NCBI GenBank assembly: GCA_001550305.1
Contig: LRTP01000368.1
Coordinates: forward strand, 1-64,000
Reading direction: 5' to 3'
DNA: 64,000 nt
Source of the DNA: Streptomyces diastatochromogenes
GTDB taxonomy: Bacteria > Actinomycetota > Actinomycetes > Streptomycetales > Streptomycetaceae
In this document: positions 31,839 through 41,361 of the stretch, piece by piece
Position numbering within the stretch: position 1 is the first letter of the stretch
Layout: every line of letters begins with the position of its first letter
Notes under the pieces: model-generated
Seen by the model: only the letters and a program-made list of their open reading frames with translations
What the model was told of the DNA's origin: nothing
Database searches by the model: none
Position numbers and translations under genes: made by a program

Positions 31839-33023
31839 TCAGCCCCGGTGGAAGTACTCGGCGTCGAGCACGCCGTTCAGCCTGCGGCCCAGTTCGGCGG
31901 AGAACCGGTGGACGACGCCGAGCGGCCGGTGGTGGATGGCGGCCCGGACGATCTGCCCGTCCGCGTTCTTCGTCAGGATCGTCAGGCCGTCGATCTGCGT
32001 GCCGCCGAACGCGGTGGCCCGCCACTCCAGGTAGGAGCGCTCCCCGCTGACGGTCGCCTGGGTGAAGACGAGCGATTCGTAGATCGTGCTCGCCGCTGCC
32101 ATCACGTTCTTGACCTGGTCGCGGCCCTCGACCGTGCGGGTGAGGGCGCTCGCCTCCAGCGTCACGTCGGCGGCGAAAGGGTCACTGAACGCGTTGGCCG
32201 ACTTCTCCTCGAAGGCGTTGGTCCAGGCCGACACCTGCACGGCGGGCAACGCGCGGGCCAGGAAGCGATCGAGGTGGCCCGCGACGCGGGTCGGCTGCTC
32301 CAGGTGGGCCCAGTGCCCGGCCTGGCCGACCGCCACCGTCTCGGGCGCGGCGAACCGCGGCGCGACCCCCTGCGCGACCGACTCGTCGGTGACGAATCCG
32401 TCGTCCTCGCCGCGCACGATGAGCACGGGTCCGGTGTACCGGCTGGGCTGCTCGCCCGCCGGGTGCCCGTTGTTCCAGCAGTCGGCGGCCTCCCGCACGG
32501 TCTCGGGACGCATCCGCGTGCCGCTCACCACCAGCCGGTCGAGGTCCGCCTCCGCCAGCGCGGCCGACAGCTGTGTCCTGACTGCGCGCTGCGCGTCGCC
32601 GTCGCCGCCCAAGGAATGGAAGGTGTCCATCTCCTCGTCGGGCTGCCGGGTGCCGCCCAGCGGGACCGGGGTGACCAGGACCAGACCGAGAGCTCGGTCA
32701 GGGCGCTGTGCGGCCACCAGCTCGGCCACCGCCGATCCCAGGCTCTGCCCGACGATCACGAAGGGCTTGCCGAGGGCGTCGGCCACGGCGCCCACCTCGT
32801 CGGCGAACCGGTCGTAGGTGAACGGCCCACTCGCCTGCGTGCGGTCCCCGCTCCCGGCCAGGTCCAGGGTGACGCATTCGATGCCAGGGGTGGTGAGTTC
32901 GCCGATCAGGCGGTCCCAGACGTACTGGTCGTCCAGGAAGCCGTGGACGAACACCACAGCGAAGTCTCCCTCGCCCTGCCGCCGGAATCGCACATCACTC
33001 GTTCCGACCCGCTCTGTCCTCAT
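31839..33023 (-). CDS. Alpha/beta-hydrolase fused to a SnoaL-like domain
   Basis: This 394-aa protein starts MRTERVGTSDVRFRRQGEGD at 33023. Residues 1 to about 260 form an alpha/beta hydrolase: VVFVHGFLDDQ, VIVGQSLGSAVAELVAAQ (GxSxG), LIVRGEDDGFV (Asp) and VAVGQAGHWAHLEQP (His). Residues about 270-394 form an NTF2/SnoaL-like domain (VSAWTNAFEEKSANAFSDPF, LEASALTRTVEGRDQV, RRLNGVLDAEYFHRG). Fusions of this order are not one I know as standard. The start is 8 bases downstream of the flavin reductase stop, so the two are coupled. Probable role: hydrolysis of an ester or thioester coupled to the flavin-dependent step. Confidence 0.82.
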   Translation of the reverse strand: MRTERVGTSDVRFRRQGEGDFAVVFVHGFLDDQYVWDRLIGELTTPGIECVTLDLAGSGDRTQASGPFTYDRFADEVGAVADALGKPFVIVGQSLGSAVAELVAAQRPDRALGLVLVTPVPLGGTRQPDEEMDTFHSLGGDGDAQRAVRTQLSAALAEADLDRLVVSGTRMRPETVREAADCWNNGHPAGEQPSRYTGPVLIVRGEDDGFVTDESVAQGVAPRFAAPETVAVGQAGHWAHLEQPTRVAGHLDRFLARALPAVQVSAWTNAFEEKSANAFSDPFAADVTLEASALTRTVEGRDQVKNVMAAASTIYESLVFTQATVSGERSYLEWRATAFGGTQIDGLTILTKNADGQIVRAAIHHRPLGVVHRFSAELGRRLNGVLDAEYFHRG

Positions 33024-33031
33024 CGCCGCGC

Positions 33032-33760
33032 TCACTTTCCGGGGGCGACCCTGACCTCGCCCGAGGCGGACCATTCCTTGGTGTTGATCGGGGACCAGTC
33101 GGCGGGCCGTCCGTCCAGACGCTGCATCCGCTGGTCGTGCCGGGCTTCGAGCAGTTCCTTGTCCAGGGGGGTGGTGAAGACGTTCTCGACCAGCGTGTAC
33201 TCGGCGGCCAGGCGTCCCACGGCCGGGAGGGCGGCGGTGTCGATCCGGCCCCGCTCCAGGTAGAGGTCGTCCCGGACGTGGAAGCGCACCACCCGGCCCC
33301 ACACCACGTGGTCCACCATGTCGTCCCCGACGGGGATGATCCGGTCGACGACGCACTCGAAGGAGATCGGCGCGTCCTTGACCCGGGGTGCGCGCACGAC
33401 CTCGGACGGCTCCTTGCCCAGGTCGAGCGCCTCGAACTCGTCCACGTCCGGCTCGAACCCGTAGGCCGAACCGTGCATGGCGTCCGCCTGCGGCAGCGTC
33501 ACCAGGTTGGTGACGAACTCGCCGGTGTCACGGATGTTGATGAAGGTGTCCTTCAGAGTGACGCCGTCCGCCTGCGGCTGCAGGGTGATCGAGACCATGG
33601 GCGGCTTCCTGCCGACGGCGGTGAAGAAGGAGATGGGCGCGAGATTGGCCACGCCCTCGGTCGACACCGTGCTGACCCAGGCCACGGCGCGCGGAATGAT
33701 GCTTCCGATCAGCAGTTTGTACGCGTGGGCGGCGTCGAGTTCTGCAGCGTCAATGATCAT
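33032..33760 (-). CDS. Flavin reductase/FMN-binding split-barrel protein
   Basis: This 242-aa protein starts MIIDAAELDAAHAYKLLIGS after GGAGGT (start 33760). It has PRAVAWVSTVSTEGVANLAP (FMN phosphate and isoalloxazine contact), ISFFTAVGRKPPMVSI and KDTFINIRDTGEFVTNL, typical of the DIM6/NTAB flavin reductase fold. The C-terminal extension of about 70 residues (ELLEARHDQRMQRLDGR) is longer than in plain reductases. As the first gene of the run down to the enoyl-CoA hydratase, it is likely the oxidoreductase of the pathway or supplies reduced flavin. Confidence 0.88.
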   Translation of the reverse strand: MIIDAAELDAAHAYKLLIGSIIPRAVAWVSTVSTEGVANLAPISFFTAVGRKPPMVSITLQPQADGVTLKDTFINIRDTGEFVTNLVTLPQADAMHGSAYGFEPDVDEFEALDLGKEPSEVVRAPRVKDAPISFECVVDRIIPVGDDMVDHVVWGRVVRFHVRDDLYLERGRIDTAALPAVGRLAAEYTLVENVFTTPLDKELLEARHDQRMQRLDGRPADWSPINTKEWSASGEVRVAPGK

Positions 33761-34133
33761 CGTCAGACCTCCATCGGTGGGAACGCGGCATGGGAACAGC
33801 GCTGCACGCCGTACGACCACTGCCGGGAGAGCGACTCATGGGGGGCGCCGAGGGGAGGGGCGCTGCACCCTGGGCTCTCATTGAAATAAGCGTATGCCTT
33901 TTGACTATGTCACGCAAGTCGGACATTACGTCATCTCATCACTGCACCGGGAGAATGCCGGAACATAGCTGTACCGCGGTTGCCTCTGGCGGATTGCGCC
34001 ATCGCCCGCTGTGGTGACGCCCATAGAGGTGTTGGCCGACGAGGATCCTGGTGGTGGGCGTCGGCGGGAAAGGTGGACCGTCGTCCTGTGTCCCTGCGTG
34101 ATCAGGGCCCGGGACATCGTCCGCCTCCCCCCG
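33761..34133 (-). promoter_or_regulatory. Promoter region of the flavin reductase operon
   Basis: On the minus strand I read TTGCGT (33912-33917), a 17-bp spacer and TACGCT (33889-33894). The spacer begins with GACATAGTCAA. The identical 11-mer starts a 17-bp spacer in the promoter of the MBL gene at 36801, which makes it a likely shared operator. The other bases of the region (33761-33888 and 33918-34133) hold no gene that I can support. Confidence 0.6.
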
Positions 34134-34868
34134 TTACTTCCGCATGGATTCCGCGAGGTCGCTGACCTGCTGAAGCTGACTCGCGGCGAGACGTCGCACG
34201 TCCCAGATGAGCTCGGCCACACCAGCGGTGGCCGGTCCGGGTGACGCGCCGGGAGGCTCGATCCCCGTCACGGCCGCCAAGTCGCCGGAGGCCACGCCGA
34301 GTACGGCGGAGAAATCAAGCAGGAGCTCAGGGGTGAGCTGTATGCGACCGTGGCCCACCCCGCCATAGGTGGCAGCGGACCAATACCGGCCGGTGACCGC
34401 CTGGAACGTCTTGGCTGTGGCCGTCCAGTTGAGATTTCTGTTCCGCGCCATGCGCATGAGCAGGGCACCGGGACCTGGAGAGTATTGCTCGTACACCGGC
34501 AACCTGGGAACGGGCTCCGTGCTCTCCTCCCGTGGCAGGGATGCCACGAACTTTCGCAATGCGTCCTTCTTCTCCGGAGGCAGGGCGACGGTGCGTCGGA
34601 CCAGGTCGGGAACAAGCGATCCGGCCGTCGTGTCCGCGGGGGCGAGGGCGTCGGGTACGTCGGCGCCGACCATGGCAAAGAGGTCCGCCGTATGCAGACC
34701 GAGCACGGGAGCGAGCCGCCGAAGCAAAGATGGGTTCGGCGCTCCGCTGTTGAACACTGTGCGCAGTTCGAGCTCGGCGACGTCGGCGAGTTGGGCCAAG
34801 GCACCGATGTCCAGCTGCCTGAGACCCGCTAGTCGCTCCAGTACACCCATGTCCGCATCCCGCGCCAT
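34134..34868 (-). CDS. Helix-turn-helix (XRE-like) protein of unknown function
   Basis: This 244-aa protein starts MARDADMGVLERLAGLRQLD. The first 60 residues look like an XRE HTH (IGALAQLADVAELELRTVFN, LRRLAPVLGLHTADLFAMVG). The middle (RLPVYEQYSPGPGALLMRMA) and the end (RIQLTPELLLDFSAVLGVAS) resemble a family of conserved actinomycete proteins. No known function. It could regulate the neighbouring operon, but there is no evidence beyond adjacency. Confidence 0.6.
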   Translation of the reverse strand: MARDADMGVLERLAGLRQLDIGALAQLADVAELELRTVFNSGAPNPSLLRRLAPVLGLHTADLFAMVGADVPDALAPADTTAGSLVPDLVRRTVALPPEKKDALRKFVASLPREESTEPVPRLPVYEQYSPGPGALLMRMARNRNLNWTATAKTFQAVTGRYWSAATYGGVGHGRIQLTPELLLDFSAVLGVASGDLAAVTGIEPPGASPGPATAGVAELIWDVRRLAASQLQQVSDLAESMRK

Positions 34869-35065
34869 CCGGCCAGCCTAGCCTCGTGACAACACCCGCA
34901 TCAGCAGCCGAACGCGCGCTGCTGCGGCCGGACCACGACGTATCCAGCCCTCTGGCCAGCGAAGTGACTCCGACGTGTGCCAGACGCGACCTAGACCGTA
35001 CTGAGGATGTGGAGCGCGTTTGAGGTCTACTGCCGCGCCAGATCTGGTTGGGTAGCTTGATCGGC

Positions 35066-35749
35066 ATGGATCAGGGGCGGGTAGTTGAAGCGTTTCGGCT
35101 TGAGGCGGGGCAGCTCGCGCAGGAGATGACCTGGGTTTCGGCGGCCGAGTGGCGTCTGCCGACGCGGTGTGCACCGTGGAACGTGAGCGACTTGCTGGCT
35201 CATGTCCGGGTGGTGATTGCCTGGCTGCCGGGCATGCTGGCCGCGCCGGCGCCGATCCGTGCCGAGGTCTCGGCAGTGGAGTACTACCGGCCCGACGCCC
35301 GTTTCGCTCCGGGCACCAACGCGGCTCGGATCGCTCTGGCCCAAGATCATGCGGCTGAACAGCTCAGCGGTGCCGCACTTGCCGACGACTTCAACGCCAC
35401 TTGGCAAGAGGTGGACCGATTGTGCCGGGCCGAGCCCGAAGGGCGTGTGGTTCGCACGCGGCACGGCGATCCGATGCTCCTGTCGGAGTTCCTGCTGACA
35501 CGCGTGGTTGAGGTCGCCGTGCACGGCCTGGACCTGGCCGACGCCCTGGGGCGCGAGACGTGGCTGACTTCCGCGGCCGCAGATTTGGTGCAGGGACTTC
35601 TGCTCGGACCGGACGGGGCAGCGGCACTGGAGAAGCTGGGGTGGAGGCAGCTTCGTTTTCTGCGCAAGGCGACGGGGCGCGAGCCGATGACCAGGGAGGA
35701 GGCATCGGACGTCAGCCGCCTGGGCATCCGCTGGCTCACGTTGGGTTGA
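35066..35749 (+). CDS. Maleylpyruvate isomerase-like mycothiol-dependent protein
   Basis: This 227-aa protein starts MDQGRVVEAFRLEAGQLAQE at 35066 (an earlier frame start 18 bases upstream is less likely). The MDMPI/DinB signatures are TRCAPWNVSDLLAHVRVVIA (first metal His), RVVEVAVHGLDLADALG (second metal motif HGxDL) and the C-terminal WRQLRFLRKATGREPM helix. The family binds a metal and some members use mycothiol; the substrate is unknown. It stands alone between minus-strand genes. Confidence 0.8.
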   Translation: MDQGRVVEAFRLEAGQLAQEMTWVSAAEWRLPTRCAPWNVSDLLAHVRVVIAWLPGMLAAPAPIRAEVSAVEYYRPDARFAPGTNAARIALAQDHAAEQLSGAALADDFNATWQEVDRLCRAEPEGRVVRTRHGDPMLLSEFLLTRVVEVAVHGLDLADALGRETWLTSAAADLVQGLLLGPDGAAALEKLGWRQLRFLRKATGREPMTREEASDVSRLGIRWLTLG

Positions 35750-35943
35750 GAAGTCGCCAACTGACGCCAGCCAACGCTGCGGAACGGTTGCTGGATGCTG
35801 TCGACGATCCCTCCGGGTAGGTCGATCTGGCCGGAGGGCTTCAGTGCAATGAGCGCAGTGTGCGCCTTGGCCACAGCAATTCGGCTGGTCATAGGCATAC
35901 CACCGTCGTCTCGCCGCAGGACGATCACCTCTCAGGCAACGTC

Positions 35944-36801
35944 TCACTTTCCCAGTAGTCCGACCGCTCCGTACCACACCGGACCCGGGTTGAGCAGATC
36001 CGGGTAGAGCCCTGTCATCCGGTCGAAGAACTCGCGGGCAGTCGGGTCTTCGTCGAGCAGCCGGATGGCGTCCAGAAGGTACTGCCGGGTTCGGTCGAGA
36101 ATGGCGGGATCATCCGGTAGGTCTTTGTTCTTGTGGCCGGCCACAACCGCGCGCGGCTCGAGCGCGGCGACGCGATCGATGGCCGTAAGCCATTTCTGCA
36201 GGCCGCCATTGCCGCCTTCGAGGATGTACTGGTGCACCCCGTTGTAGGCGACGTCGCCGGCCACCACGAGGCCGATGGACGGCACGTGCAGGACGGACGT
36301 CTCGTCGGTGTCCGTGTGCCCGACCTCGATGGCCTGGACGAGGTTGCGCTCCAGCTGGAAGCCGTCGGCGGGAACGGGCTGGGCAAGAACCGGGCTGTCG
36401 GGGATCAGGCCGGGGAAGCGCTTGTCCCACATTTGTTCGCGCCCGGCGGTGGTCTGCTGGTGCATGACCTCGATGGTGCCGCGGGTCGCGTAGACGGTGA
36501 CGCCGTGGAATCGCTTCACGAGTTCCGCGGTGCCGAACCAGTGATCGCCGTGCCCGTGGGTGGAGTAGATGTGGGTCAGGCGCCTGCCGGACCGCTCGAC
36601 CCAGTCGCCGACCTGTTCGGTCTGTTCTCGGGTGAAAGGCGGATCGACCAGGACGGCGTCCTCTTCCCCGAAGATCAGTGTCGAGGTCAGCGGTGAGGAA
36701 ACGAGCCGGTCACCGTTGGGCAGGCGTTCCTCCCCGGCCCTGGGTGTGCCGTCCGAAACGAAGGTCTCGTACTCCAGAGAGCTGGGCGCTGATGCGGTCA
36801 T
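35944..36801 (-). CDS. Metallo-beta-lactamase-fold hydrolase
   Basis: This 285-aa protein starts MTASAPSSLEYETFVSDGTP at 36801; the earlier start is Arg-rich. It has THGHGDHWFGTAELVKRF (HxHxDH), VEVGHTDTDETS-like (HIEVGHTDTDE), VVAGDVAYNG (bridging Asp), and AVVAGHKNKDLPDDP. The whole pattern, including WFG and the GHKN motif, recurs in the divergent gene at 37064; these are paralogues of one quorum-signal-lactonase/arylsulfatase-like subgroup. The substrate is unknown. The two genes share a central operator. Confidence 0.88.
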   Translation of the reverse strand: MTASAPSSLEYETFVSDGTPRAGEERLPNGDRLVSSPLTSTLIFGEEDAVLVDPPFTREQTEQVGDWVERSGRRLTHIYSTHGHGDHWFGTAELVKRFHGVTVYATRGTIEVMHQQTTAGREQMWDKRFPGLIPDSPVLAQPVPADGFQLERNLVQAIEVGHTDTDETSVLHVPSIGLVVAGDVAYNGVHQYILEGGNGGLQKWLTAIDRVAALEPRAVVAGHKNKDLPDDPAILDRTRQYLLDAIRLLDEDPTAREFFDRMTGLYPDLLNPGPVWYGAVGLLGK

Positions 36802-36912
36802 GATGGCTCCTCCCTGAGGGGCAACGTGCGGCCCGCGCGGTCTTCTGGTCACCTACCTGCGGCGGCGGACCGCTTGCGCAGCGGAATTCAGTGCCTACAC
36901 AACGACGACTGT

Positions 36913-36961
36913 ACGACATAATCATACCCGCATTGACTATGTCGTTGAGTCGAGTTACTTT
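36913..36961. promoter_or_regulatory. Divergent promoter/operator of the MBL gene pair
   Basis: Plus strand: TTGACT (36933-36938), 17-bp spacer, TACTTT (36956-36961), serving 37064. Minus strand: TATGAT (-10; 36921-36926) preceded by a 17-bp spacer that starts GACATAGTCAA; the -35 (CTCAAC) is weak. Inverted repeats ACGACATA (36913-36920) and TATGTCGT (36938-36945) overlap both promoters. The GACATAGTCAA element at the head of the 17-bp spacer is the same as in the flavin reductase promoter. Confidence 0.65.
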
Positions 36962-37063
36962 CGGCTGGAGAAGTACGACAGGCCAGGCAGCATCCACAGG
37001 TATCGACATGGCTGATCGGCTACAGCTCTCTCGTGGCTGCCTCTGAGTCCCAAGGAAGCGATC

Positions 37064-37912
37064 ATGCCCGGAGCGCAACTGAGCTGGAGTGTCCACGTGG
37101 CGCCGTCGATCCCCACCGAGATCGCGGACCTGCCGCCCGACGTCCCCCGGCGCCTGTGGTCGCCCATCACGGCCACACTGATCGCAGGCGAGCGCGATGC
37201 GGTGCTGGTCGACGCGCTGATGACCGCCGAGCAGGCCGACCGGTTGGCCGACTGGGTCGCGGCGAGCGGCATGAACCTCACCACGGTCTTCGTGACCCAC
37301 GGGCACGGTGACCACTGGTTCGGGCTGGGCACCCTTCTTGAGCGCTTCCCGGGGGCGCGCGCGGTGGCGACGCCGGCGGTGGTGGAGCAGATGAAGAAGC
37401 AGATGGCACCGGAGTTCGTCGCGTCGTTCTGGGGCAAGCGCTTCCCGGGCCAGATCCCGGACAGGCTCGTGGCAGCGGAGCCGCTGGCCGGCGATCGGCT
37501 GGAGCTGGAGGGCCAGGACCTTGTCGTCGTGGGACTCGGGCACACGGACACCGATGACACCACCTGTCTGCACGTGCCGTCGATCGGCCTGGTCGTGGCC
37601 GGAGACGCCGTCTACAACGATGTTCACCTCTATCTCGCCGAATCGCCCGCCGAGGGCCGCCGAGCCTGGCTGGACGCCCTCGACACCATCGCCGCGCTGG
37701 AGCCAGAAGCGGTGGTCGCGGGGCACAAGAACCCCGACCGTCCCGACGACCCGAAGGCAATCGCCGAAACCCGGCGCTACATCCACGACTTTGAGGCGGT
37801 CGCAGAGCACACCAAGACCACTCTCGACCTCTACCGCCGCATGTTGGAACTGCATCCTGGCCGGGTCAACCAGGGCGCACTGTGGGGCTCGGCGAGGTCC
37901 GCCAAGGGCTGA
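37064..37912 (+). CDS. Metallo-beta-lactamase-fold hydrolase
   Basis: This 282-aa protein starts MPGAQLSWSVHVAPSIPTEI. It has FVTHGHGDHWFGLGTLLERF (HxHxDH), GLGHTDTDDTTCLHVPSIGL, VVAGDAVYNDVHLYLAE (bridging Asp) and AVVAGHKNPDRPDDPKAIAE. It is the paralogue of the divergent gene at 36801: the THGHGDHWFG, GHTDTD, VPSIGLVVAGD and AVVAGHKN blocks are common. The role is inferred from the fold as hydrolysis of an ester, lactone or thioester. A start upstream would give an extra Ser/Arg-rich segment. Confidence 0.88.
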   Translation: MPGAQLSWSVHVAPSIPTEIADLPPDVPRRLWSPITATLIAGERDAVLVDALMTAEQADRLADWVAASGMNLTTVFVTHGHGDHWFGLGTLLERFPGARAVATPAVVEQMKKQMAPEFVASFWGKRFPGQIPDRLVAAEPLAGDRLELEGQDLVVVGLGHTDTDDTTCLHVPSIGLVVAGDAVYNDVHLYLAESPAEGRRAWLDALDTIAALEPEAVVAGHKNPDRPDDPKAIAETRRYIHDFEAVAEHTKTTLDLYRRMLELHPGRVNQGALWGSARSAKG

Positions 37913-38175
37913 GCGGCCGGGCCGTGGCCGCCCGGTCGCACCATGGTCGGGGCGCCCGGGGCAGGGAGGCGTCAGCCGAGTGCGTGTTCGACGTGCAGAT
38001 GCTTCTGTCCGCGACTCACCCGAGCGGCACAGCCTGCAAGGGCGAACCCACCGGGCCCTACGCGGAACTCCGGGAAGCCGACACTCGTCATTCGGAGAGT
38101 TACACTTCCAGACGTAATAAGTAAATAGGCTATGGACATGTTGCTGTAGCTGCCGTCACCGAAAGAGATGCGCGA

Positions 38176-38781
38176 ATGTCCTGGACTGCGACAGCCCGAT
38201 ATGGCCTGGAGCCCGCCCCGGGCGGGCTGGCCCTCGTACAGGACCTGCTCAACACGCTGTCCGCCGGCAAGCCCCGGAAGTCCGACCTTCTGCAGACCGC
38301 CGAGGGCGCCCGTGCTTGGCTCGACCAGGCATTGAAGAGCTGGAGTGGGGTGTCCCACCGGCCCGCACCCGGCATCGAACTGACAGCCGAGGACGTGCAG
38401 GGCCTGCGCGACTTCCGTCATGACCTGGGGCAGAGCCTCCACGCCCAGCTCGGTGACTCGGCGACGGAGCCCGGCCCGGCGGCTTCACTGATGACCTTGC
38501 CCACCGCACTGCGGCTCGACGAGCACGGGGCCGTCCACGCCGAGCCCCGCGGTACGGGATGGCGGCAGGTGGCGTCACTCGCCCTCATCGAGGTCTACCA
38601 GGCGCAGTGCACCGACACCCTGCGCCGCCTGAAGGCCTGCCGAAACACGCGCTGCCTGGTTGCCTTCTACGACCGCTCCCGCAACAACAGCGGCGTCTGG
38701 CACGACGTCCACGTCTGCGGCAACGCGGCCAACCTGCGCAACTATCGTGCGCGCAAGCGGGCCGGCGCCGACCAGGTCTGA
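38176..38781 (+). CDS. CGNR zinc-finger transcriptional regulator
   Basis: This 201-aa protein starts MSWTATARYGLEPAPGGLAL. The N-terminal ABATE-like region (about 10-140: ALVQDLLNTL..., LTAEDVQGLRDFRHDLGQSL) is followed by the zinc motif LKACRNTRCLVAFYDRSRNN and then HVCGNAANLRNYRAR (CGN-x-x-N/R). This fits the CGNR family of DNA-binding regulators. It is next to the MBL pair and opposite a paralogue of the unknown family; its targets are not evident. Confidence 0.85.
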   Translation: MSWTATARYGLEPAPGGLALVQDLLNTLSAGKPRKSDLLQTAEGARAWLDQALKSWSGVSHRPAPGIELTAEDVQGLRDFRHDLGQSLHAQLGDSATEPGPAASLMTLPTALRLDEHGAVHAEPRGTGWRQVASLALIEVYQAQCTDTLRRLKACRNTRCLVAFYDRSRNNSGVWHDVHVCGNAANLRNYRARKRAGADQV

Positions 38782-40254: not shown

Positions 40255-41361
40255 ATGAGCTCGACACAGTCCTTGCTTCTGCCGTACCAGATGCGCGACG
40301 TCTCTCTGGCGAACCGCGTGGTCATGGCCCCGTTGACGCGGAGTCGTGCACGCAATCGCGATCTCCTGCCCACTGATCTCCACGTCGAGTACTACGCCCA
40401 GCGGGCTTCAGCCGGTCTGATCGTCTCCGAGGGTGTGTGGATCAGCCGCGACGCGGTCGGATGGCATGACGTTCCGGGGCTGTTCACCGATGAGCAGGTC
40501 GCCCGCTGGAAGCAGGTGACAGATGCGGTCCACCACGCAGGTGGTGTCATTTTCGCTCAGCTGTGGCACACCGGGTCCGCTTCTCACCCCGACTTCTTCG
40601 ACGGCCGCCCGCCCCTTGCGCCTTCAGCCGTCAACCCGGGGCTACTGGCTCCGACTTCGGCCGGCCGCAAGCCCACCGTGGAGCCCCGGGCGATGTCGGC
40701 GTACGACCTCCGCCGTACGGTCGCCGACTATGCGGCGGCGGCTCGCAACGCCATGGCGGCGGGATTCGACGGTGTGCAGCTGCAGGCAGGCTTCAACTAC
40801 CTGATCAGTCAGTTCCTGAATCCCCGCACCAATCTGCGCACGGACCGCTACGGCGGCACGATCGAGAACCGTGCCCGCTTCCTCTTCGAGATCATCGAGG
40901 CCGTCGGCGAGTTCGTCGACCTGCGGCGTGTCGGTGTGAAAGCCGGACCCGCCTGGTCCGAGACGGGAGAGTTCATCTCCGGGGTCGAGGCGCTGGCTGA
41001 CAGCGAGTACGTGCTCGGACGGCTCAACGACTATGAACTGTCACATCTCCTGCTCATGGGGATGATGGCCGACCCCACCGGAGGACCGTTGGAGGAGCTG
41101 GCCGGCGATGGCATGTTCCGGCACTTCCGGAAGGTCTATGAAGGCACGATCATGGCGAACGTCGGGTTCGACCAGGACCGAGGGAACTCGATTCTGAGCG
41201 ACGGCCTGGCGGATCTGGTCGCCTACGGGCAGCCGTTCATCGCCAATCCGGATCTGCCGGCCCGGATCGCCTCCCACGCGCCGCTCGCCGAACCGAAGAA
41301 GGACCTCTTCTACGGTCCGGATGCGGCCGGCTACACCGATTACCCACTACTGGAAGCGTGA
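40255..41361 (+). CDS. Old Yellow Enzyme (alkene reductase)-family flavoprotein
   Basis: This 368-aa TIM-barrel protein starts MSSTQSLLLPYQMRDVSLAN. It has NRVVMAPLTRSRA, FAQLWHTGSASHPDFFDGRP, SAVNPGLLA, RTDRYGGTIENRARFLFE and the phosphate-binding end FIANPDLPARI. The substrate-anchoring pair usually written HxxN (HGANGYL or HAANGYL) reads LQAGFNYLISQFL here, so His is Gln and Asn is Phe. The Tyr in RYGG and other FMN contacts are kept. It may still reduce enals or enones, with altered substrate binding. A promoter with an inverted repeat lies 90 bases upstream. Confidence 0.88.
   Translation: MSSTQSLLLPYQMRDVSLANRVVMAPLTRSRARNRDLLPTDLHVEYYAQRASAGLIVSEGVWISRDAVGWHDVPGLFTDEQVARWKQVTDAVHHAGGVIFAQLWHTGSASHPDFFDGRPPLAPSAVNPGLLAPTSAGRKPTVEPRAMSAYDLRRTVADYAAAARNAMAAGFDGVQLQAGFNYLISQFLNPRTNLRTDRYGGTIENRARFLFEIIEAVGEFVDLRRVGVKAGPAWSETGEFISGVEALADSEYVLGRLNDYELSHLLLMGMMADPTGGPLEELAGDGMFRHFRKVYEGTIMANVGFDQDRGNSILSDGLADLVAYGQPFIANPDLPARIASHAPLAEPKKDLFYGPDAAGYTDYPLLEA

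Follow-up and report, generated by a model that had tools for sequence, protein, structure and literature searches.

Bacterial proteins that combine an ABATE domain (PF07336) with a CGNR zinc finger (PF11706) have a structural representative in Jann_2411 (PDB 3h0n). According to the part of the structural account drawn on here, Jann_2411 is likely to form a dimer, its treble-clef finger probably contacts DNA and its N-terminal domain may take up a ligand; ligand-released DNA binding is proposed (PMC2954205). The name-giving motif of Jann_2411 itself reads CQNR, and the same part of that account gives no DNA target. In a second source, as far as considered here, a CGNR protein appears only as an entry in a table listing changed genes (PMC9976334). 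Among titles and abstract openings no paper on an operator for the CGNR/ABATE family was found, and such an operator has probably, though not certainly, gone unpublished; nor was any found on a GACATA palindrome in Streptomyces; in the literature located, within the parts considered, DNA binding by CGNR proteins stands as a prediction from one crystal structure only. Here we describe a repeated element in the first 64,000 nucleotides of contig LRTP01000368.1 from the draft genome of Streptomyces diastatochromogenes (this whole stretch is hereafter the window). The element is a 29-bp palindrome found ahead of a flavin-reductase operon and between two divergent genes for MBL-fold hydrolases, and very probably serves as operator for a neighbouring zinc-finger protein of the ABATE/CGNR type, encoded at 38176-38781. 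The predicted sites and their proposed regulator are as follows.

33883 to 33911, no strand assigned: predicted operator A, 29-bp palindrome GAAATAAGCGTATGCCTTTTGACTATGTC, upstream of the flavin-reductase operon; matrix score 39.4
36915 to 36943, no strand assigned: predicted operator B, 29-bp palindrome GACATAATCATACCCGCATTGACTATGTC, between the divergent MBL genes; matrix score 38.4
38114 to 38142, no strand assigned: predicted, weaker operator C, GTAATAAGTAAATAGGCTATGGACATGTT, 62 bp before the CGNR start codon; score 23.4
33962 to 33990, no strand assigned: tentative operator A', a weak or decayed second copy, AACATAGCTGTACCGCGGTTGCCTCTGGC, 79 bp from A; score 17.1
38176 to 38781, plus strand: ABATE and variant CGNR zinc-finger protein, the proposed regulator; PF11706 E 6.4e-14, PF07336 E 5.5e-7, predicted model matching 3h0n

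An initial annotation of this DNA had taken the operator to be an 11-mer, GACATAGTCAA, placed identically at the head of 17-bp spacers in two promoters. The two window copies are real, but the 11-mer is only half of the element: a palindrome, GACATA-N17-TATGTC, underlies both repeats, exact at site B and one base off at site A (right arm TATTTC). The inverted arms ACGACATA and TATGTCGT do lie at 36913-36920 and 36938-36945, and the quoted promoter strings are all present (33917-33889, 36949-36921 and 36933-36961). The identical placement within the spacers is likewise there to be seen, but it is not independent evidence, because TACGCT, TATGAT and TTGACT all belong to the palindrome; the equal 17-bp spacing and the shared 11-mer both follow from the geometry of the 29-bp operator. 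A genome-wide search for the 11-mer, as the annotation had envisaged, returned mostly noise when near-matches were admitted (three exact copies in the draft genome; 54 places with one mismatch vs 34 with the pattern reversed). The third exact copy (C640) was set aside for want of a second arm, and none of the 51 one-mismatch 11-mers in the genome lies within three mismatches of the 29-bp pattern (27 were viewed with their flanks). The 29-bp form behaved otherwise: with up to three mismatches, GACATARTCAN9TGAYTATGTC matched only A and B in the 12.3-Mb draft genome, with no match for the reversed-pattern control, and a second, broader form of the pattern again found A and B only.

Across 41 non-redundant sites the symmetric consensus is GACATARGCAWA-N5-TWTGCYTATGTC at fixed spacing, with G1, A2, C3 and A6 the most constant positions. 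When the GACATA..TATGTC dyad was counted at spacings of 5 to 30 with at most two mismatches (55 loci, 455 kb, six of the loci fetched by the site), spacing 17 gave the peak, with 46 cases vs 1-14 elsewhere; at that spacing the dyad is absent from 27 other CGNR loci, and in 68 loci without a CGNR gene (six of them pattern-fetched) there are 12 cases at spacing 17 vs 4-19 at the others. A sigma-factor signature was rejected as an explanation, since a symmetric site whose dyad spacing is fixed speaks for a dimeric protein. That the two window copies reflect chance similarity or duplicated promoter DNA is hardly credible. Chance does allow something of the 11-mer (0.16 copies expected in the window with one mismatch allowed, and 2 of 100 shuffles giving two near-matches), but the 29-bp form is confined in the genome to A and B and, in other genera, is met again next to genes of the same clade; the plain duplicated promoter was rejected on these comparative data.

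Scans that started from the site converge on one neighbouring gene. With a pattern drawn from the window only, 11 of 295 genomes of the genus matched, its own included, and all four others with at most two mismatches (G027, G122, G104 and G028) carry an ABATE/CGNR gene within 1.5 kb of the site. The broader pattern, at the same tolerance, found four further genomes among 394 of the class and three among 394 of the family, none being matched by the reversed control, and in each a CGNR gene of the clade defined below stands beside the site. In total, 11 of 11 genomes outside the source with such a site carry a CGNR gene of the clade no more than 1.5 kb away (one, G273, had been met earlier through its CGNR gene). 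Chance would place a CGNR gene beside roughly 0.3-0.4% of sites, by arithmetic from a mean of 8.2 genes per genome; that mean comes from 115 zf-CGNR matches in 14 genomes of the genus, 5 to 12 each, five of the 14 having been picked for holding a site. Of 13 window proteins compared with the 11 site-found loci (3.0-3.6 kb), the CGNR protein matched in all 11 and each of the other 12 in none or one; for G122 the locus centred on the CGNR gene (L175) was used, and L119, which overlaps it, has matches to both MBL proteins as well.

The same association appears when loci are fetched by their genes. Among 80 loci found by MBL similarity, the window-only pattern with up to four mismatches occurs in 13 of the 21 that contain a CGNR gene and in none of the 59 that do not (Fisher p 6e-10), the corresponding counts being 7/21 vs 0/59 at three mismatches and 14/21 vs 2/59 at five. 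A weight matrix was trained on the MBL loci and the window, its training sites being chosen with the window pattern, and was tried on a held-out set fetched by CGNR protein search (L155-L178, with L124-L153 and L179-L183 as controls). At a threshold of 18 it found a site in 19 of the 24 loci with a CGNR gene of the clade and in none of the 35 with another CGNR gene; thresholds of 14 and 16 added a single control, L181, in which the gene is truncated and which may itself belong to the clade. The held-out loci hold 26 sites in 83 kb. Dinucleotide shuffling, repeated 100 times, gave none, and the rate in DNA without CGNR genes (1.63 per 100 kb) would predict about 1.4. Four of the held-out loci (L168, L170, L171 and L175) hold sites already met in the genus scan. 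A tree of 71 CGNR proteins, from which matches below 165 residues, sequences identical to another and copies fetched a second time (L154, L170, L171, L120 and L119) were left out, places the site (at most five mismatches, within 1.6 kb) beside 38 of the 46 members of one clade and none of the 25 proteins outside it; without the site-fetched L184-L187 the clade count is 34 of 42. By these comparisons the predicted site is found across several actinobacterial genera and is tied to one CGNR clade.

It would also be tied to that clade if its regulator were encoded elsewhere and the CGNR gene were simply a regular target. Nineteen of the 46 clade genes do have a site of score at least 18 within 200 bp before the coding start, as autoregulation predicts and as a plain target would equally show. 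Such an arrangement is nonetheless unlikely: in L108, L111, L120 and L113 a strong site precedes a different gene, and the distance to the CGNR gene is 0.5 to 2.7 kb; other CGNR clades show no site, and the site clade has finger residues of its own; and a distant regulator should leave sites away from CGNR genes, yet all 11 genomes with at most two mismatches have one next to the site. The pairing of the site with the CGNR protein as its regulator is, on this comparative evidence, well supported.

Several observations nevertheless weigh against that pairing or narrow it. Five of the 24 held-out loci have no site (L156 and L176-L178 among them are partial protein matches), and eight of the 46 clade members lack one at five mismatches within 1.6 kb; five of these eight (L113, L070, L072, L043 and L102) have matrix matches of 24 to 41 that lie farther off or contain more mismatches, and in L167, L104 and L164 nothing convincing was found. 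In the genus scan, six genomes matched at three mismatches (L114, L115, L117, L118, L121 and L123) have no CGNR gene at the locus, and the reversed pattern produced two matches of its own; for these two reasons the exact three-mismatch matches are probably chance. The broader pattern used for the class, the family and the second own-genome scan was drawn up after sites in CGNR-bearing loci were known, a post hoc choice from which the first own-genome scan, the genus scan, the Fisher test and the held-out matrix test are free. Scores such as those of C and A' also arise by chance (eight places of at least 20 and 12 of at least 16 in 798 kb without CGNR genes), and operator B, with 20 of 29 columns kept vs 149 of 233 around it (a figure lowered by a shorter slice of L035), is not clearly better conserved than its surroundings among close orthologues.

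Two matching orthologous loci bear on the regulator as well as on the sites. L034, from Streptomyces olivochromogenes DSM 40451, encodes a CGNR protein 96% identical to that of the window, and L035, from Streptomyces sp. NBC_01549, one 90% identical; both keep operators A and B, and both retain the weaker A' and C. Across the three sequences 27 of 29 bases of operator A are identical vs 158 of 218 in the surroundings. A 106-bp stretch around operator B, searched as nucleotides against the 295 genus genomes, matched its own genome only, and conservation was therefore traced through proteins; a plasmid search with 81 bp gave no match. In the matrix scan of the whole window four places score at least 8, namely A, B, C and A'. 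Because scores like those of the last two also arise by chance, C and A' rest on their conserved place: the A' score lies within the background range, with equivalent places scoring 25.5 in L034 and 24.9 in L035, and counterparts of C stand at -62 in L034 and L155, -59 in L036 and -61 in L111, the L035 counterpart scoring 16.0.

Both L034 and L035 lack the gene at 34134-34868, whose product the initial annotation had called a helix-turn-helix (HTH) protein and had offered, alongside the CGNR protein, as a candidate regulator of A and B. Its gene does sit between the two sites in the window, but a role as their regulator is very improbable: it is missing from orthologous loci (open reading frames were listed for L034 only) that keep A, B and the weaker C, a comparison with 157 loci, many of which span only about 3 kb, gave no homologue of it at E 1e-4, and it falls in no Pfam or NCBIfam family. 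The HTH protein was rejected as regulator since the operators persist without its gene, and the CGNR protein is the candidate singled out by co-occurrence. The neighbouring mycothiol-isomerase-like gene (35066) is likewise absent from L034 and L035; the HTH and mycothiol-isomerase-like genes lie together between the operators at 34134-35749, and the pair looks like a local insertion or replacement.

The protein assigned to the site departs from its family at the very domain expected to touch DNA. The 38176 protein matches the ABATE profile at residues 19-129 (30.7 bits vs a cut-off of 24.4) and the zf-CGNR profile at residues 151-194 (51.9 bits vs a cut-off of 24). A sequence search of the PDB with it gave nothing significant (best E 0.74), for which reason an AlphaFold2 model and a fold search were used: the model has a mean pLDDT of 83.7, with the finger blocks at 58-83, and 3h0n is the sole PDB match below E 0.001 (E 5.8e-6, TM 0.50/0.53, root-mean-square deviation 6.9). 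The two domains, their order and the fold are thus shared with Jann_2411, the family's proposed dimer and DNA binder. The difference lies in the finger. Of the four zinc cysteines, Cys155, Cys160 and Cys181 are kept; the aligned third ligand is His176, present in 46 of 46 members of the site clade where all 25 other CGNR proteins have Cys. Within the CGNR motif, CGN is retained, but residue 184 is A, P, T, V, L or I in all 46, as opposed to R in all 25 others; Asn186 is equally invariant in the clade, the 25 others having Lys or His. Two family-defining features, the four cysteines and the R of CGNR, are accordingly absent, although the 38176 protein retains profile and fold. By alignment, a zinc finger with a Cys-Cys-His-Cys ligand set and CGNxxN in place of CGNR is plausible for this clade, and residues 176, 184 and 186 are, in the sequences compared, a clean marker of the predicted operator-bearing subfamily (L070, which holds unknown residues, was excluded from the structure alignment). 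A changed finger, together with the lack of the site in other clades, fits a change of DNA specificity, a distinct finger going with a distinct DNA site. A subclade of five loci (L039, L040, L080, L168 and L169) has sites that start TAC rather than GAC and a finger that reads CGNTQN rather than CGNAAN; a further specificity change is possible there.

How the protein would act is suggested by the position of the sites relative to promoter-like hexamers and to the genes behind them, which are listed here.

33889 to 33917, minus strand: putative promoter of the flavin-reductase operon, TTGCGT-N17-TACGCT, its spacer and -10 inside operator A
36949 to 36921, minus strand: putative promoter of 35944, CTCAAC-N17-TATGAT, overlapping operator B
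36933 to 36961, plus strand: putative promoter for 37064, TTGACT-N17-TACTTT, its -35 inside the right arm of operator B
33032 to 33763, minus strand: flavin reductase-like protein, first gene behind operator A; PF01613 E 1.2e-22
31839 to 33059, minus strand: alpha/beta hydrolase with a C-terminal SnoaL-like domain; PF00561, PF12697, PF12680
30876 to 31769, minus strand: alpha/beta hydrolase; PF02129
30056 to 30859, minus strand: enoyl-CoA hydratase/isomerase family protein; PF00378
35944 to 36801, minus strand: MBL-fold hydrolase, left of operator B; PF00753
37064 to 37912, plus strand: MBL-fold hydrolase, right of operator B; PF00753

In the proposed mechanism a dimer of the CGNR protein would sit on the palindrome with one treble-clef finger per 12-bp half-site, an arrangement that the palindrome fits, the dimer itself being reported for Jann_2411 only. 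At A the dimer would cover the spacer and -10 of the putative promoter serving the flavin reductase, the two hydrolases and the enoyl-CoA hydratase; at B it would cover the -35/-10 region, taking in the putative promoter of 35944 as well as the -35 proposed for 37064. Bound there, it would repress the flavin-reductase operon and both MBL genes, and through C the CGNR protein may limit its own synthesis, as a weaker control. More tentatively, a small metabolite of the pathway might bind the ABATE domain and lift repression. The CGNR protein probably represses until its ABATE domain senses a metabolite.

That the protein binds the site as an activator, or as both activator and repressor, is possible though doubtful. 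The tandem sites of the SDR/CGNR divergons, exactly 50 bp apart in L116, L122 and L172 and 47 bp apart in L184-L187, could suit either role; the fixed spacing suggests co-operative binding. Set against activation are positions typical of repression: A and B overlap putative -10/-35 elements, and in six loci (L062, L063, L085, L116, L122 and L172) the site starts at -24 and its right arm, TATGTC, contains the ATG of the CGNR gene. The case for repression is itself open to the objection that it rests on position at promoter-like hexamers which a strict sigma-70 scan did not recognise, that scan finding no promoter in 33700-38300. The plus-strand hexamers at B (TTGACT and TACTTT) are identical in the window, L034 and L035, and at A the -10 is kept in both orthologous loci, with the -35 changed by one base to TTGCGC.

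Repression by the CGNR protein would resemble that by one-component dimeric repressors of the LacI and TetR type, an analogy drawn in the part of the Jann_2411 account considered here (PMC2954205), in the palindromic operator laid over promoter elements, the likely autoregulation and the adjacent catabolic target genes. It would differ from them in using a treble-clef zinc finger rather than a helix-turn-helix, on a site whose outer hexamers start 23 bp apart.

The initial annotation's broader proposal, that one regulator governs one small regulon of a catabolic or detoxification type comprising the flavin-reductase operon and the divergent MBL pair, holds as far as comparison reaches. In other genomes, an SDR gene stands beside the site in all six SDR/CGNR loci tested; CoA-transferase genes adjoin it in L063, L085 and L168, thiolase in L085, MBL hydrolases in L063, L173 and L174, hydrolase-SnoaL proteins in L063 and L085, SnoaL in L113, and a flavin reductase with a SLAC1-type channel in L159, while for the site neighbours in L108 and L158 no family was found. 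This gene set suggests a role in the breakdown of organic acids, and, to go by the enzyme types under predicted control, the compound degraded would be an organic acid, a lactone or an aromatic. Actinobacterial aromatic-acid catabolic regulons have related enzyme types, with alpha/beta hydrolases and with the CoA-transferase (L063, L085 and L168) and thiolase (L085) found here; no ring-cleavage gene was identified, no search aimed at one having been made. Enzyme names were kept at the Pfam level because, among the NCBIfam matches listed (25 of 72 for the enoyl-CoA hydratase), none reaches its cut-off, and the CGNR, flavin-reductase and HTH proteins fall in no NCBIfam family. Three Arthrobacter loci (L070, L071 and L072) hold several sites; the contig of L071 has no CGNR gene, and the same genome has one on L070. 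These sites suggest a multi-operon regulon.

Two further observations concern genes near or within the proposed regulon. A gene for an FMN ene-reductase of the old yellow enzyme type lies at 40255-41361, near the CGNR gene, and is present in L034 too; no operator-like place of score at least 8 precedes it in the window. Proteins 56-62% identical to the MBL-fold hydrolase 37064 occur in archaeal metagenome-assembled genomes (L042, L044-L047 and L061), beside bacterial ones of several phyla, and may reflect either wide transfer or binning error.

CGNR proteins are common, and a defined operator, its target operons and a shared change in the finger make the function of the family testable, with the operator giving a handle for finding the signal of the ABATE domain. 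What is likely to be gained is a DNA target, predicted by comparison, for a variant clade of a common and uncharacterised bacterial zinc-finger family; no such target is given for Jann_2411 in the part of its account considered, and here a palindromic operator and target genes are proposed. It seems probable that no DNA recognition sequence was known before this one for the ABATE/CGNR family, in which a variant-finger clade would bind as a dimer to a 29-bp palindrome of 12-bp half-sites and control catabolic operons in several actinobacterial genera, some lineages repressing themselves through the start-codon arm TATGTC. If so, a bacterial treble-clef zinc finger would be serving as an ordinary operon regulator, and the change in the finger and the operator would have arisen together, in which case other CGNR clades should have different operators that could be decoded in the same way.

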